Below, one piece after another: positions 57,820 through 63,438 of a DNA stretch of 64,000 nt (positions are counted from its first letter, which is position 1; every line of letters starts with the position of its first letter). The DNA lies in NCBI GenBank assembly GCA_023663635.1, contig JAMPHD010000009.1, positions 1-64,000 of the forward strand. The letters run 5' to 3'. The notes under the pieces were generated by a model. It saw nothing but the letters and a program-made list of their open reading frames with translations, did no database searches and was not told the DNA's origin. Position numbers and translations under genes: made by a program. Source of the stretch: Acetatifactor muris (lineage in GTDB: Bacteria > Bacillota > Clostridia > Lachnospirales > Lachnospiraceae).

Positions 57820-60090
57820 ATGAAGAAGAGCAAAGCAATCGTGATCCTGCTCTGTGTGGTCCTGCTTTTGGCGGGAATCACCTATGTGGATCTGCGCGGT
57901 GTGGACGCGGAGGGTTCAGGCAGCGCATCGGACATCAAGCTGGGATTGGATCTGGCGGGCGGTGTCAGCATCACCTATCAGGTGGTGGGAGATGAGGCGC
58001 CGGACTCCACGGACATGCAGGACACCATCAACAAGTTGCAGAAACGTGTGGAGAATTACAGCACGGAGGCGATCGTATACCAGGAGGGCAGCGACCGGAT
58101 CAACATTGAGATCCCCGGGGTGAGCGATGCCAATGCCATCCTGCAGGAGTTGGGCAAGCCCGGCGCCCTGTATTTTATCGCGCAGACGGACGAGGACGGC
58201 AACAGCAACTATTCATGGCAGAGTGTCATCAATGCGGACGGCACCACCGGCGGGGAATATCGCCTGAATAAGACCTTGGAAGAGCTTGAGGCGGAAGGGT
58301 CCGTCAAGCTGATGGGCACCGACGTAAAGGATGCCAGAGCAGTCACCTACCGCGATTCCATGCAAAATTCCACCTTTGCGGTGGAGCTGACCATGACGGC
58401 GGAGGGCACGGAAAAATTCGCGAAAGCCACGGAGAACGCCTACACCAAAAACGAGACTCTGGCCATTTACTATGACGGCGTATTTGTCAGCGTACCCACG
58501 GTGGAGAGCGTGTTCACGGACGGCACCGCGCTGATCAGACCCATGGAATCCGCGGAGGCGGCGGAGAATCTTGCCTCCACCATCCGCATCGGCGGATTGA
58601 AACTGGAACTGGAGGAGCTGCATTCCAAGGTGGTGGGCGCCCAGTTGGGCGTTGAGGCCATCGACACCAGCTTAAAGGCCGGGGCCATCGGACTGGTGAT
58701 CGTGATCGTGTTCATGATCGCCGTGTACTTTATCGCGGGTCTGGCCTCCGCGCTGGGATTGGGAATGTATGTGGCGCTGATCGTACTTTTGTTGAACGGT
58801 TTCAGTGATATCATCACTCTGACGCTCTCCGGTGTGGCGGGTATCATATTGTCCATCGGTATGGCCGTGGACGCCAACGTGATCATCTTCGCCCGTATCC
58901 GCGAGGAGATCGCGGCCGGCAAATCCGTGCAGAGCGCCATCAAATCAGGTTTCGACAAAGCGCTGTCCGCCATCGTGGACGGCAATATCACCACCCTGAT
59001 CGCGGCTGCCGTGCTGCTCTTCCTGGCACCCGGCTCCATTAAGGGATTCGCCCAGACATTGGCGCTTGGTATCGTGCTTTCTATGTTCACGGCTTTGGTG
59101 GTGACCAGATATATACTGATGGCGTTTTATGCTTTGGGCTTTAAGGACGCCAAATGGTACGGCGTTGCCAAAGAGCATAAGGCGATCGATTTTCTCTCCA
59201 AGAAGGGCATTTTCTTCGGCATATCCGTTGCGGTGATCGCGGCCGGCTTTGTGGTGATGGGTGTGAACAAGGTCAACACGGGAGATATGCTGAACTACAG
59301 TCTGGAGTTTAAGGGCGGCACGGCCACCACGGTCAACTTCCGCGAGAGCATGACCCTGCAGGAGGCCACGGACAATGTGGTGCCTCTGATCGAGAGCGTG
59401 ACGGGCAGCGCCGTGCAGGTTCAAAACGTCCAGGAGTCCAACGAGATCATCTTCAAGACCAACAGCCTGAGCGTGGATCAAAGAGAGGCCCTGAACGCGG
59501 CTCTGATGGAGAATTTCGGCGTGGAGGAGTCCATGATCGAGTCGGAGACCATCAGTTCCACCATCAGTGACGAGATGAAGACGGACACGATCCTGGCGGT
59601 GGTGGTTGCCATCGTGTGTATGCTGATCTATATCAGAATCCGCTTTAAGGATCTGCGTTTCGGCATCAGCAGTATCGTGGCGCTGATCCATGACGTGTTG
59701 GTGGTAATGGCCTTCTACGCGGTGGCAAAAGTCTCCGTGGGCAATACCTTTATCGCATGTATGTTGACCATCGTGGGTTATTCCGTCAACGCCACCATCG
59801 TGATCTTTGACCGTGTGAGAGAGAATATGGCGACCATGGGTAGGAAGGATGATCTGAAGGATGTGGTGAACAGGAGCATCACCCAGACGTTGACCAGAAG
59901 TATCTTCACGTCCCTGACCACCTTTATCATGGTGGCATGCCTGTATGTATTGGGCGTGATGAGCATCCGCGACTTCGCGCTGCCTCTGATGGTGGGCATC
60001 ATCTGCGGCACCTATTCCTCCGTGTGTATCACCGGCGGACTCTGGTATGTGCTGCGGAAGAAATTCCCGCCCAAGGAAAGTGCGAAATAG
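57820..60090 (+). CDS. secDF: Fused SecD-SecF protein translocase subunit
   Basis: A 756-residue membrane protein. SecD half: first span, then DIKLGLDLAGGVSITYQVVG, large P1 domain with IEIPGV, and conserved IGMAVDANVIIFARIREE. SecF half from about 455: FSKKGIFFGISVAVIAA-like first span, YSLEFKGGTATTVNF and VGYSVNATIVIFDRVREN. Twelve spans in total. It uses the proton motive force to help secreted proteins leave SecYEG. Its place directly after the SCIFF maturase is a conserved clostridial linkage. Confidence 0.92.
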   Translation: MKKSKAIVILLCVVLLLAGITYVDLRGVDAEGSGSASDIKLGLDLAGGVSITYQVVGDEAPDSTDMQDTINKLQKRVENYSTEAIVYQEGSDRINIEIPGVSDANAILQELGKPGALYFIAQTDEDGNSNYSWQSVINADGTTGGEYRLNKTLEELEAEGSVKLMGTDVKDARAVTYRDSMQNSTFAVELTMTAEGTEKFAKATENAYTKNETLAIYYDGVFVSVPTVESVFTDGTALIRPMESAEAAENLASTIRIGGLKLELEELHSKVVGAQLGVEAIDTSLKAGAIGLVIVIVFMIAVYFIAGLASALGLGMYVALIVLLLNGFSDIITLTLSGVAGIILSIGMAVDANVIIFARIREEIAAGKSVQSAIKSGFDKALSAIVDGNITTLIAAAVLLFLAPGSIKGFAQTLALGIVLSMFTALVVTRYILMAFYALGFKDAKWYGVAKEHKAIDFLSKKGIFFGISVAVIAAGFVVMGVNKVNTGDMLNYSLEFKGGTATTVNFRESMTLQEATDNVVPLIESVTGSAVQVQNVQESNEIIFKTNSLSVDQREALNAALMENFGVEESMIESETISSTISDEMKTDTILAVVVAIVCMLIYIRIRFKDLRFGISSIVALIHDVLVVMAFYAVAKVSVGNTFIACMLTIVGYSVNATIVIFDRVRENMATMGRKDDLKDVVNRSITQTLTRSIFTSLTTFIMVACLYVLGVMSIRDFALPLMVGIICGTYSSVCITGGLWYVLRKKFPPKESAK

Positions 60091-60091
60091 A

Positions 60092-61682
60092 ATGAATGTG
60101 GTAAAAAAGATTCAAAAATGCATGAGCAGACTCAGCAATCCGGCGGAATGGGCCGTATTGGCGATCAGCGGTCTGATGATCGCGTTTGTCGCGGTGAATG
60201 TATTTTTGTTCAGGATCGATGGCTATACCTCCGATGTGGAGCGGGATCGGGTGATATTGGGAGTTGTGTCTGCCCTGTTGCCGCTCGGGGGGGGTATGGG
60301 GCCTGACGCGGCCGCTCAATTGGCTCTATGGTAAGATCCGTTTTTTGGATGTGATCCTGTTGCTGTTGACATTGGGATTTTCCTGCGGATTCTGCGCGGT
60401 CTTCTTGAAGGGGGCGAATCTTTTGCCATCCTCGGATTGCAGTTCCGTGTTTGAGATTGCCATATGGATGTCTGAGGGCAATATGCAGGCAGTGGTCCCC
60501 AAGGGATCCTATCTGTCTCTCTATCCCTTTCAGACAGGCATGATCTTTATCTTTGAAAAGATGATTCGTATTTTTCATACCACCGACCCCCTGTTTTTTC
60601 AGGGGGTCAATGTCCTGTATGTGGCATTGGCCATCACGTCCGGCTTTGGGATCGTCAGATTACTGTGCGGCCGGATAGAGATCATATTGCCGTATCTTTT
60701 GTTTGCGGGCAGTTATTTTCCCATGCTGCTCAACACGGGGCGGATATATGGGGATGTCCCGTCCATGGCGCTGATGATGTTCGCCACATGGATGTTTCTT
60801 TTGTTTGAGCGAAACGGAGAAAGGCGCATCCGCATACTGTACGGTATTTTGGGATTGGCGGGCACGGTGTTGGCGAGTACCTACCGAAGGAACACTTTGA
60901 TCTATGTGTTGGCAGTCACGTTGGCCTTTGGGCTCCGGCTGATCCGGAGATTTCGGTGGACGGATATGCTGTTGGCGGTCTGTGTGTTGGTCCTGTCCGC
61001 TTATTCCACGGGGATCACACAGAAGTATTATGAATATTACGCGGATAACACCATGGGAGAGGGCATGCCCGCCATGGCGAGTCTCGCCATGGGGGTTCAG
61101 GACTCGGGAGGGATTCCCGGCGGGAATAACGGTTTCCATGTGAGCGCCTTTTTGGATTGCGATTATGATGTGGAGGCCACCGTGGCGGTGAGCAGGGAGG
61201 CCTGGCTGGGATCGTGGAGAGAATTCGCGGATCATCCGGATATCCTGTTGGATTTCTTTTATCGCAAGCTGTTGCTGCAATGGGGCAATCCCACCTGCGG
61301 GTGTTTTTGGCAGTTGGCATCTCTGTTTCAGGAGCCGCAGTCAGACTTTGCGCTGAGCGTTCTCTACAGCCAATACGGGTCACGTCATGACAGACTGGTG
61401 TCCTACATGAATTGGTGGCAGAGCGCCCTGTACGGCATGTTCTGTGTGGCATTTGTCCGCATTGTCCGGGACAGGGTGAGGGACGGTGAGAGGATCTCTC
61501 CATTGAGTTTTATTCCGCTCATCACGTTTATCGGCGGATTTCTGTTTTCCATGATCTGGGAGGCGGGACCGAGATATGTCATGGCATATCCCTTCCTGCT
61601 GCTCCCTTTCATGTTGTCCAATCTGCGTAAACCGGGGAGTGTTCAGAATGGAAAAGTGGATGGTGGCGGCCAGGAAGGCTGA
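60092..61682 (+). pseudogene. GT-C-like membrane glycosyltransferase gene interrupted at a G8 tract
   Basis: The frame from ATG 60092 (MNVVKKIQKCMSRLSNPAEW, first membrane span) runs into a tract of eight G at 60287-60294 and stops at 60334. A second frame (open from 60264) continues with WGLTRPLNWLYGKIRFLDVILLLLTLGFSCGF and a further ten or so membrane spans to 61682. Removing one G joins them as LLPLGG-VWGLTRPLNWLYG, giving a protein of about 529 residues that resembles polyprenyl-sugar-using mannosyltransferase-like proteins. It could be phase-variable by G-tract slippage, a true pseudogene or an assembly error. It overlaps recJ at its 3' end. Confidence 0.65.
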
Positions 61683-63438
61683 TTTTGCAAAATGGGCGAG
61701 AGACTTCGGCATCAGCCCCGTGGTGGCGCGTATCCTGCGAAACCGGGGACTGACGGAGGAGACTCAGGTGGAGAAATTCCTGCGCGGCACATTGGCGGAC
61801 TGCCATTCCCCTTGGCTCCTAAAAGATATGGACAGGGCCGTGGAGAGAGTGTGGCGGGCGGTCGAAAGAGAGGAAAAGATCCGTGTCATAGGGGATTATG
61901 ACGTGGACGGTATCTGCTCTGCCCATATCCTGACCAAGGGGTTGCGCCTGGCGGGCGGATTGGCTGACACTGCCATTCCCCATCGCATACATGACGGATA
62001 CGGCCTCAACGATCGGCTGATCGAGGCGGCGGGGGAGGACGGCATCCGCCTGATCGTCACCTGTGATAACGGGATTGCGGCGGCGGAGCAGATCGCGTTG
62101 GCGAATACCTTGGGCATCGATGTGGTGGTGACGGACCATCACGAGGTTCCGTATGTGACGGATCGGGCCGGCGGCAGACGGGAGATATTGCCGGAGGCGG
62201 TGGCCGTGGTGGATCCCAAGCGGTCGGACTGTCCCTATCCCTTCAAGGGCATCTGCGGCGGCGTGGTGGCCTATAAGTTCATGCAGGCGTTTCTTGAGGA
62301 CGGAGAGCGGGTCACGGCATATGCGCCGGACGCAACCGCCGTGCGGGAGAGCATGGAAGAATTTTTGGAGTTCGCGGCTTTTGCCACGGTCTGTGACGTG
62401 ATGGAGCTCGCGGATGAGAACCGCATTTTGGTCAAAGAAGGCTTAAAACGACTGCAAAACAGCCGAAACAGAGGCCTGCGGGCGCTGATAAGGGTGAACG
62501 GACTGGAGGCGGGAAAACTCTCCGCGTACCATCTGGGTTTTGTGCTGGGTCCCTGTCTGAATGCCACAGGAAGACTGGACACGGCCAAGAGAGCCTTGGA
62601 ACTTTTGCAGAGCGACAGCGACACGGAGGCCATGAGCGCGGCGAGAGAGTTGGTGGAGATGAACGACAGCCGCAAAAATCTCACCTCGCAGGGCGTGGAG
62701 GCGGCGGAGCAGTATATTGTCCGACACCACATGGAGAATGATAAGGTACTGGTGATCTATCTGCCCGAGGTACATGAGAGTCTGGCGGGGATCATCGCCG
62801 GCCGTGTGCGGGAGCGGCATGACCGTCCCGTGTTCGTGCTGACCAAGGGGGAGGAGGGCGTCAAGGGTTCCGGGCGCTCCATTGAGGCCTGGCATATGTA
62901 TGACGGCATGACGCAGGTAAAAGAGCTTTTTACCAAATACGGCGGCCATAAGATGGCGGCGGGTCTCTCCATGGCGGAGGAGAATGTGGAGCGGCTCAGA
63001 CGGGAGCTGAATGAGCGCTGTGAACTGACGGAGGAGGACTTTGCCCCGGTCGTACATATCGATGTGCCCATGCCCCTGTCCTACGCAAGCGAAGATCTGG
63101 CGAGGGAGTTGGAGATCTTGGAGCCCTTCGGTGTGGGGAATCCCCAACCGCTCTTCGCGCAGAAGAATCTGGTCTTTCTGTCGGCCGCAAAGATGGGCGC
63201 CGGCGGCAACAGCGCCGGATTCCGGGTGCGGACGCCGGAGGGGACCGTGGAGCGACTGGTGCTTTTCCGCAATTTGGAGGGTTTTGAGGAGTTCCTCGCG
63301 GACAAATACGGGCCTGAGAGCGTGGGAAGGCTGTATGCGGGGCAGGGTTCTTATGAGATCTCCGTGGTGTATAAGTTGGGACTCAACACCTATCGGGGCA
63401 GGACGGAGAAACAGTTTGTCATGCAGTATTTCTGCTGA
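61648..63438 (+). CDS. recJ: Single-stranded-DNA-specific exonuclease RecJ
   Basis: A 596-residue DHH-family 5'-3' exonuclease: motifs RVIGDYDVDGICSAHIL, LIVTCDNGIAAAEQI, VVVTDHHEVP and FAAFATVCDVMELADENR, then DHHA1 with GSGRSIEAWHMYDGM and KYGGHKMAAGLSM, and an OB-like C-terminal domain. Works in recombination and mismatch/base repair. ATG 61648 after GGGGAGTGTTCAG overlaps the previous gene by 35 nt. Full length. Confidence 0.93.
   Translation: MEKWMVAARKADFAKWARDFGISPVVARILRNRGLTEETQVEKFLRGTLADCHSPWLLKDMDRAVERVWRAVEREEKIRVIGDYDVDGICSAHILTKGLRLAGGLADTAIPHRIHDGYGLNDRLIEAAGEDGIRLIVTCDNGIAAAEQIALANTLGIDVVVTDHHEVPYVTDRAGGRREILPEAVAVVDPKRSDCPYPFKGICGGVVAYKFMQAFLEDGERVTAYAPDATAVRESMEEFLEFAAFATVCDVMELADENRILVKEGLKRLQNSRNRGLRALIRVNGLEAGKLSAYHLGFVLGPCLNATGRLDTAKRALELLQSDSDTEAMSAARELVEMNDSRKNLTSQGVEAAEQYIVRHHMENDKVLVIYLPEVHESLAGIIAGRVRERHDRPVFVLTKGEEGVKGSGRSIEAWHMYDGMTQVKELFTKYGGHKMAAGLSMAEENVERLRRELNERCELTEEDFAPVVHIDVPMPLSYASEDLARELEILEPFGVGNPQPLFAQKNLVFLSAAKMGAGGNSAGFRVRTPEGTVERLVLFRNLEGFEEFLADKYGPESVGRLYAGQGSYEISVVYKLGLNTYRGRTEKQFVMQYFC

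Follow-up and report, generated by a model that had tools for sequence, protein, structure and literature searches.

A run of eight guanines at a frame change in an accessory GT-C glycosyltransferase gene of Acetatifactor muris, a candidate slippage switch

In the genome of Acetatifactor muris (assembly GCA_023663635.1), a gene encoding an enzyme of GT-C glycosyltransferase fold is interrupted at a run of eight guanines, and frame breaks recur at other G8 runs of the same genome and at G runs in related genes of the genus. The gene lies in the window, which denotes here the whole stretch of 64,000 nucleotides that was analysed (contig JAMPHD010000009.1, positions 1 to 64,000, forward strand). 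The best reading of these observations, to which a probability of about 0.57 is assigned, is phase variation of an accessory GT-C gene through its G tract. The G8 would be a slippage-prone tract whose length is changed by single bases through replication slippage, with the gene alternating between an open and an out-of-frame configuration, of which the assembly would have captured the latter (OFF) state. In the ON state, the enzyme would transfer a lipid-borne sugar to an envelope glycan or protein; in the OFF state, translation from 60092 would end at 60332-60334 with an 80-residue stub and no GT-C enzyme, and a second slip would reopen the frame. We infer the reversibility of this change, the occurrence of an ON state in the species, the type of substrate and a surface phenotype.

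The features of the window that bear on this reading are the following:

57820..60090, forward strand: secDF-like gene, upstream of the GT-C gene
60092..60334, forward strand: 5' frame of the GT-C gene, with ATG at 60092 and 65 residues ahead of the tract, including one hydrophobic span
60287..60294, forward strand: G8 tract, at which the frame changes
60288..61682, forward strand: 3' frame, 464 residues, open through the tract to its stop, predicted GT-C glycosyltransferase fold
60435..60437, forward strand: codon of an invariant Asp (Asp 50 of the 3' piece), present in 5 of 5 aligned sequences
61648..63438, forward strand: recJ, downstream, overlapping the 3' end of the GT-C gene

The letters of the window contain exactly eight G at the frame change, in agreement with the first-pass annotation, which had described a glycosyltransferase-like gene broken by this tract. 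Past the tract, the 5' frame adds 15 out-of-frame residues before its stop, for a total of 80. The same annotation had held that the frames before and after the tract are both coding, and this is borne out by codon-usage scores that switch frame at the tract: upstream, the 5' frame scores 0.41 versus -0.74 for the other frame, and downstream, the 3' frame scores 0.24 versus -0.19. In the translations of the open reading frames of the window, no further stops occur inside either piece in its own frame. By coordinate arithmetic alone, the 1591 bases from ATG to stop and the one-base difference between the two frames yield a protein of 529 residues if the tract is shortened by one base, the length that had been proposed earlier. 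A homopolymer located within the gene, with coding frames differing on its two sides, is a feature that the locus shares with simple-repeat phase-variable loci.

The structure of the encoded protein was modelled from the 464-residue 3' piece aligned with four homologs, at moderate confidence (pLDDT 64.8, pTM 0.68). When the Foldseek candidates were compared with VIA-align, the top 41 rows were all GT-C-type enzymes or complexes (Z 8.4 to 18.4), including Pmt4, AglB, OST, ALG3, PglB, ArnT, PimE, AftA, and EmbB; the best row was Pmt4 (Z 18.4, 303 residues, rmsd 4.0), and the first unrelated protein followed at Z 6.8, leaving a clear gap below the GT-C rows. Foldseek alone gave no match at E 0.001 or better (best E 0.07, with OST as the best rows), and Pfam, NCBIfam, and PDB sequence searches returned no family for the window protein or for its closest relative, L007. 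A weak PMT_2 match was obtained for the homologs L002 and L004, that of L004 (2.2e-5) lying just below the curated cut-off. Besides Asp 50, a GGFLFSMIWE block is invariant across the five aligned sequences, and by analogy with GT-C enzymes we take Asp 50 to be the candidate active-site Asp in the first large extracytoplasmic loop. The modelled membrane fold and the acidic residue in this loop (5 of 5 sequences) are characteristics of the GT-C superfamily that the protein would have in common with PMT/Pmt4, STT3/PglB/AglB, ArnT, ALG3, PimE, AftA, and EmbB; unlike the named GT-C sequence families, it has no significant family match. Since the fold comes without a sequence-family match, the product is, on the basis of the model, called a GT-C glycosyltransferase without an assigned substrate. 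The initial description as a GT-C-like protein is thereby upheld; the surface-glycan role attached to it is suggested by fold and family, and receives no support from the neighbouring genes.

The upstream gene, named by reading the sequence, is presumably secDF-like. Among 29 other recJ loci, secDF was present within 1.5 kb in eight, and a GT-C gene between secDF and recJ was found in none (0/29), so the GT-C gene is an accessory gene lying between the two. The neighbours were considered as a clue to function, which was rejected because secDF and recJ are uninformative on a glycan role. As recJ overlaps the end of the GT-C gene, it could be subject to a putative polar effect of the frame break.

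Relatives of the gene are widespread in the genus. The own genome contains seven matches to the 3' piece, itself included, and out of 138 genomes in the genus at least 87 have one with an E-value no higher than 1e-20; from these, a subset smaller than all matches was collected, comprising 150 loci and 145 distinct members. On the sense strand, 11 of the 145 have seven or more consecutive G within the gene, leaving aside a C7 on the sense strand of an open gene (L228) and a run in an upstream gene (L269). Six of the 11 are broken exactly at the tract, namely the window gene (G8) and members of the genomes G053 (L019/L133, G9), G019 (L134, G7), G014 (L136, G7), G155 (L177, G9), and G132 (L194, G8), and five are open across it (L244, L254, L266, and L278 with G7; L279 with G8); as L133-L136 and L194 had been chosen because their frames looked short or split, the proportion becomes 3/8 when L134, L136, and L194 are removed. 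Among the remaining 134 members, inspection and frame coverage brought three breaks to notice, in L135 (at several positions), in L145 (close to a contig end), and in L146; this procedure may miss N-terminal breaks in members lacking a tract. A scan of the 145 members for frame changes with a coding-model Viterbi procedure was dropped, as many of its 121 calls fell at gene borders or in open genes.

Two of the broken relatives carry the tract at or near the place homologous to that of the window, with a length differing in one of them, as in simple-repeat loci. The G9 of L177 lies out of frame at homologous codons, within two residues of the window's place, the distance from the shared DGYT motif to the tract being 22 residues in the translation of L177 and 23 in that of the window. 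The G8 of L194 lies near the same place and is likewise out of frame, and the P-x-x-D motif after the tract follows at 44 residues in L177, 46 in the window, and 51 in L194. Among the 145 collected members, no open copy with a tract at the exact place of the window was found. In a FastTree phylogeny, the window gene falls in a subclade of 10 members: four have a break at a tract, two are broken in other ways (L135 in several places, and L145, both lacking a tract), and four are open; this subclade is either switching or undergoing loss.

The specificity of the break for long G tracts was assessed across the assembly (2.99 Mb, 44 contigs, 99.92% complete, 0.1% contaminated). Counting both strands, the genome has six G8 runs and none longer; besides the one in the window, they are distributed over contigs C4 (two), C6, C21, and C39:

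Contig C4, 18585 (L042:1501-1508): LicD gene broken at G8, by inspection and Pfam
Contig C4, 23724 (L043:1501-1508): family-2 glycosyltransferase gene broken at G8, by inspection and Pfam
L044: G8 in an open frame without family match
L045: G8 in an open MBOAT acyltransferase gene
Contig C39 (L046:1501-1508): anti-sigma-like membrane protein gene broken at G8, directly behind an ECF-sigma-like open reading frame, both named by reading the sequence
L047: G8 in the GT-C gene of the window, broken

The frame thus changes at four of the six, with an identical offset in all four broken genes. Of 53 G7 runs in the genome, 43 lie in an open frame taken as coding; in every one of the 43 the sense strand carries the G, and a single one lies at a frame change. 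Among 34 A8 runs, 30 were examined and none breaks a gene (0/30), the two flagged by score being gene borders. The contrasts of 4/6 with 1/43 and of 4/6 with 0/30 each give a Fisher p of 0.0003, and the breaks are accordingly concentrated at the long G tracts rather than at other runs, as in a simple-repeat locus. The sole G7 at a frame change (L122:1508-1514, contig C39) belongs to the gene of a large membrane protein that gave no match in Pfam or NCBIfam, and another G7 run (L074) sits ahead of a likely start. Intact G7 runs were also observed at the end of the signal peptide of exported proteins in the same genome (L065, L118, L120, and L121), where a slip, being near the 5' end, would be most effective. 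A slippage switch in the anti-sigma-like gene of L046, if true, would act on a whole regulon.

G runs are also unevenly distributed. The first 40 kb of contig C4, called the capsule locus from a reading of its open reading frames and picked only after two G8 runs had been noticed there, contains six runs against 1.66 expected by synonymous-codon shuffling, a number reached in 0 of 300 shuffles, and it accounts for 7 of the 59 G7 and G8 runs of the genome, where 0.8 would be expected. Five G7 runs share 25 kb of this contig with the broken LicD and family-2 glycosyltransferase genes. By the same shuffling, the 47 open reading frames of the window, a set excluding the GT-C gene itself because it overlaps recJ, contain no G or C run of length seven or above where 6.6 are expected. 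The GT-C family overall has 11 G runs against 16.3 expected, i.e., no excess. Tracts in excess of the number predicted from codon use are a common, though not strictly defining, sign of simple-repeat phase-variable loci; the capsule locus shows this sign and the GT-C family does not.

A sample of 29 runs of at least eight G was taken from 29 relatives, one from each; many were intergenic or at gene ends, and ten were judged to be in-gene. Three of these ten break the gene, in two solute-binding lipoproteins (L080 and L083) and an exported protein with Ig-like matches (L105); the remaining seven leave it open, in HisD, a UvrA-like ATPase, a tRNA methyltransferase, CbiJ, AIRS, a GHMP kinase, and a membrane protein without family. 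Across the 16 coding runs of at least eight G, all seven broken genes are envelope-related, the anti-sigma-like gene included, compared with two of the nine open ones (p 0.003; without the anti-sigma-like gene among the envelope genes, p 0.04), a division that rests in part on naming by eye. Such a gene bias is expected from selection, not from sequencing errors, and fits a switch and a tolerated loss alike.

Several runs of at least eight G in the relatives G006 and G132 lie in what read as genes of mobile elements; long G runs across the genus are therefore not limited to surface genes. In these two genomes, homologous proteins carry tracts at the same codons, with a G10 that is open in G006 (L131:1500-1509) and a G11 that is out of frame in G132 (L141:1500-1510). 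Three relatives (L092, L094, and L106, near base 1501) have a G8 or G9 directly before the start of related sigma-factor-like genes, at the Shine-Dalgarno position, where tract length could tune translation. In six others (L081, L090, L093, L095, L103, and L104, near base 1501), a conserved intergenic element consists of ATGTATT, G8 or G9, and in most cases TTACGCATATTATAAT, with the tract shortly upstream of TATAAT; an Rfam scan of three such elements returned no match.

The main rival to the slippage switch is one-way inactivation, in which a dispensable accessory gene slipped at its most mutable site and became a young pseudogene, the tract being a hotspot rather than a selected switch. The absence of G runs in excess of synonymous shuffling in the family and the accessory position of the gene beside recJ favour this account, as does the subclade, where six of ten members are broken; L135 and L145, broken without a tract, resemble gene loss and, together with the lack of a family-wide excess, weigh on the switch reading. 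Eight guanines are also short for an efficient switch, the Bifidobacterium breve case discussed below having G10 and G11; the tracts of Campylobacter, Neisseria, and Helicobacter are usually longer. One-way loss is nevertheless considered rather unlikely, because it must accommodate four events in one genome that all fall at G8, two of them within a capsule locus with more G runs than expected, an out-of-frame tract at the homologous place in two species, and two pieces of the gene that are otherwise intact.

An assembly or sequencing error, with a tract that is in frame in the organism, had been named as the alternative in the first-pass annotation and is now disfavoured, to the point of being improbable. 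Homopolymers are a common site of consensus errors, and the shared offset of the four broken G8 genes is expected from a single-base length error, as it is from a recent one-base gain, and it weighs on the switch reading too. An error of this kind should not, however, leave A8 runs untouched (0/30) and affect one coding G7 run in 43, and in the relatives the breaks at eight or more G fall in envelope-related genes and spare the HisD, UvrA-like, tRNA methyltransferase, CbiJ, AIRS, and GHMP genes, which argues against plain assembly error; GT-C members of five other species are broken at tracts as well, and the assembly is otherwise good by its completeness and contamination scores. Recoding, in which ribosomal or transcriptional slippage at the run supplies some full-length enzyme, is very improbable. 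Slippage at a run of G is plausible, but the downstream frame is +1 (equivalently -2), so the common -1 ribosomal slip enters the wrong frame, and the breaks in the family occur at differing places and run lengths, while programmed sites are usually conserved. Non-programmed transcriptional slippage has been reported in the available part of one source (PMC6260861). The idea of a contingency locus, put forward in the initial annotation, is therefore retained as phase variation of the GT-C gene through indirect evidence: the concentration of breaks at G8, the further envelope genes that are broken, the out-of-frame homologous tract, and the open relatives that bear tracts, with reversibility as its conjectural part.

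As far as the accessible text of the cited papers goes, the closest published case among the literature examined is that of the sortase-dependent pili of Bifidobacterium breve, a replication-slippage switch at a G tract for which length mixtures and their effects were measured (PMC9187656). Both are gut Gram-positive bacteria in which an in-gene G tract yields two frames, both cases concern a surface structure (presumably so for the GT-C gene), and equivalents occur in other species of the genus; in contrast, the B. breve tracts are G10 and G11 in measured populations, and the present one is a G8 in a GT-C enzyme gene known from assembly sequence. Poly-G contingency genes of Campylobacter, Neisseria, and Helicobacter, in the portions available of PMC6321876 (PhasomeIt), PMC5953494 (Neisseria phasome), and PMC2823697 (H. 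canadensis), likewise place several G runs per genome in envelope and glycosylation genes, but these belong to other phyla and their switching has been demonstrated by isolates or deep sequencing. From what is accessible of the respective sources, prokaryote genomes generally contain fewer poly(C) and poly(G) runs than expected (survey PMC2831843), examples of phase variation in gut bacteria are inversion-based (review PMC11868660), Bacteroides capsules are phase-variable (review PMC12413058), and the phase-variable capsule of Akkermansia uses an inverton, slippage being raised merely as a possibility (PMC13343947). In Mediterraneibacter gnavus, also of the Lachnospiraceae, no bimodal capsule promoter expression is described in the available text (PMC13121745); a translational G-tract switch would escape a promoter reporter of this kind. 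Among the titles listed by the literature searches, none describes phase variation by homopolymers for Lachnospiraceae. The mechanism is of a known kind; what would be new is this instance, together with a possible genus-wide set.

A broader proposal, put forward tentatively, is that the genus may carry an unrecognised phasome of short G tracts, in which capsule genes (LicD and the family-2 glycosyltransferase), GT-C enzymes, exported lipoproteins, and a sigma/anti-sigma pair would switch by slippage, cells of one strain would differ in surface sugars and in the sigma regulon, and long G runs would have been eliminated from ordinary genes but retained in the capsule locus. If the switch is real, cells of a single strain of a common type of gut commensal would differ in their surface glycans, through a mechanism for which most descriptions come from pathogens in other phyla. 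Annotation of consensus genomes would then be misleading, since OFF genes would be listed as pseudogenes, and selection exerted by phages, antibodies, or diet could be followed cheaply from tract lengths in metagenomic reads.
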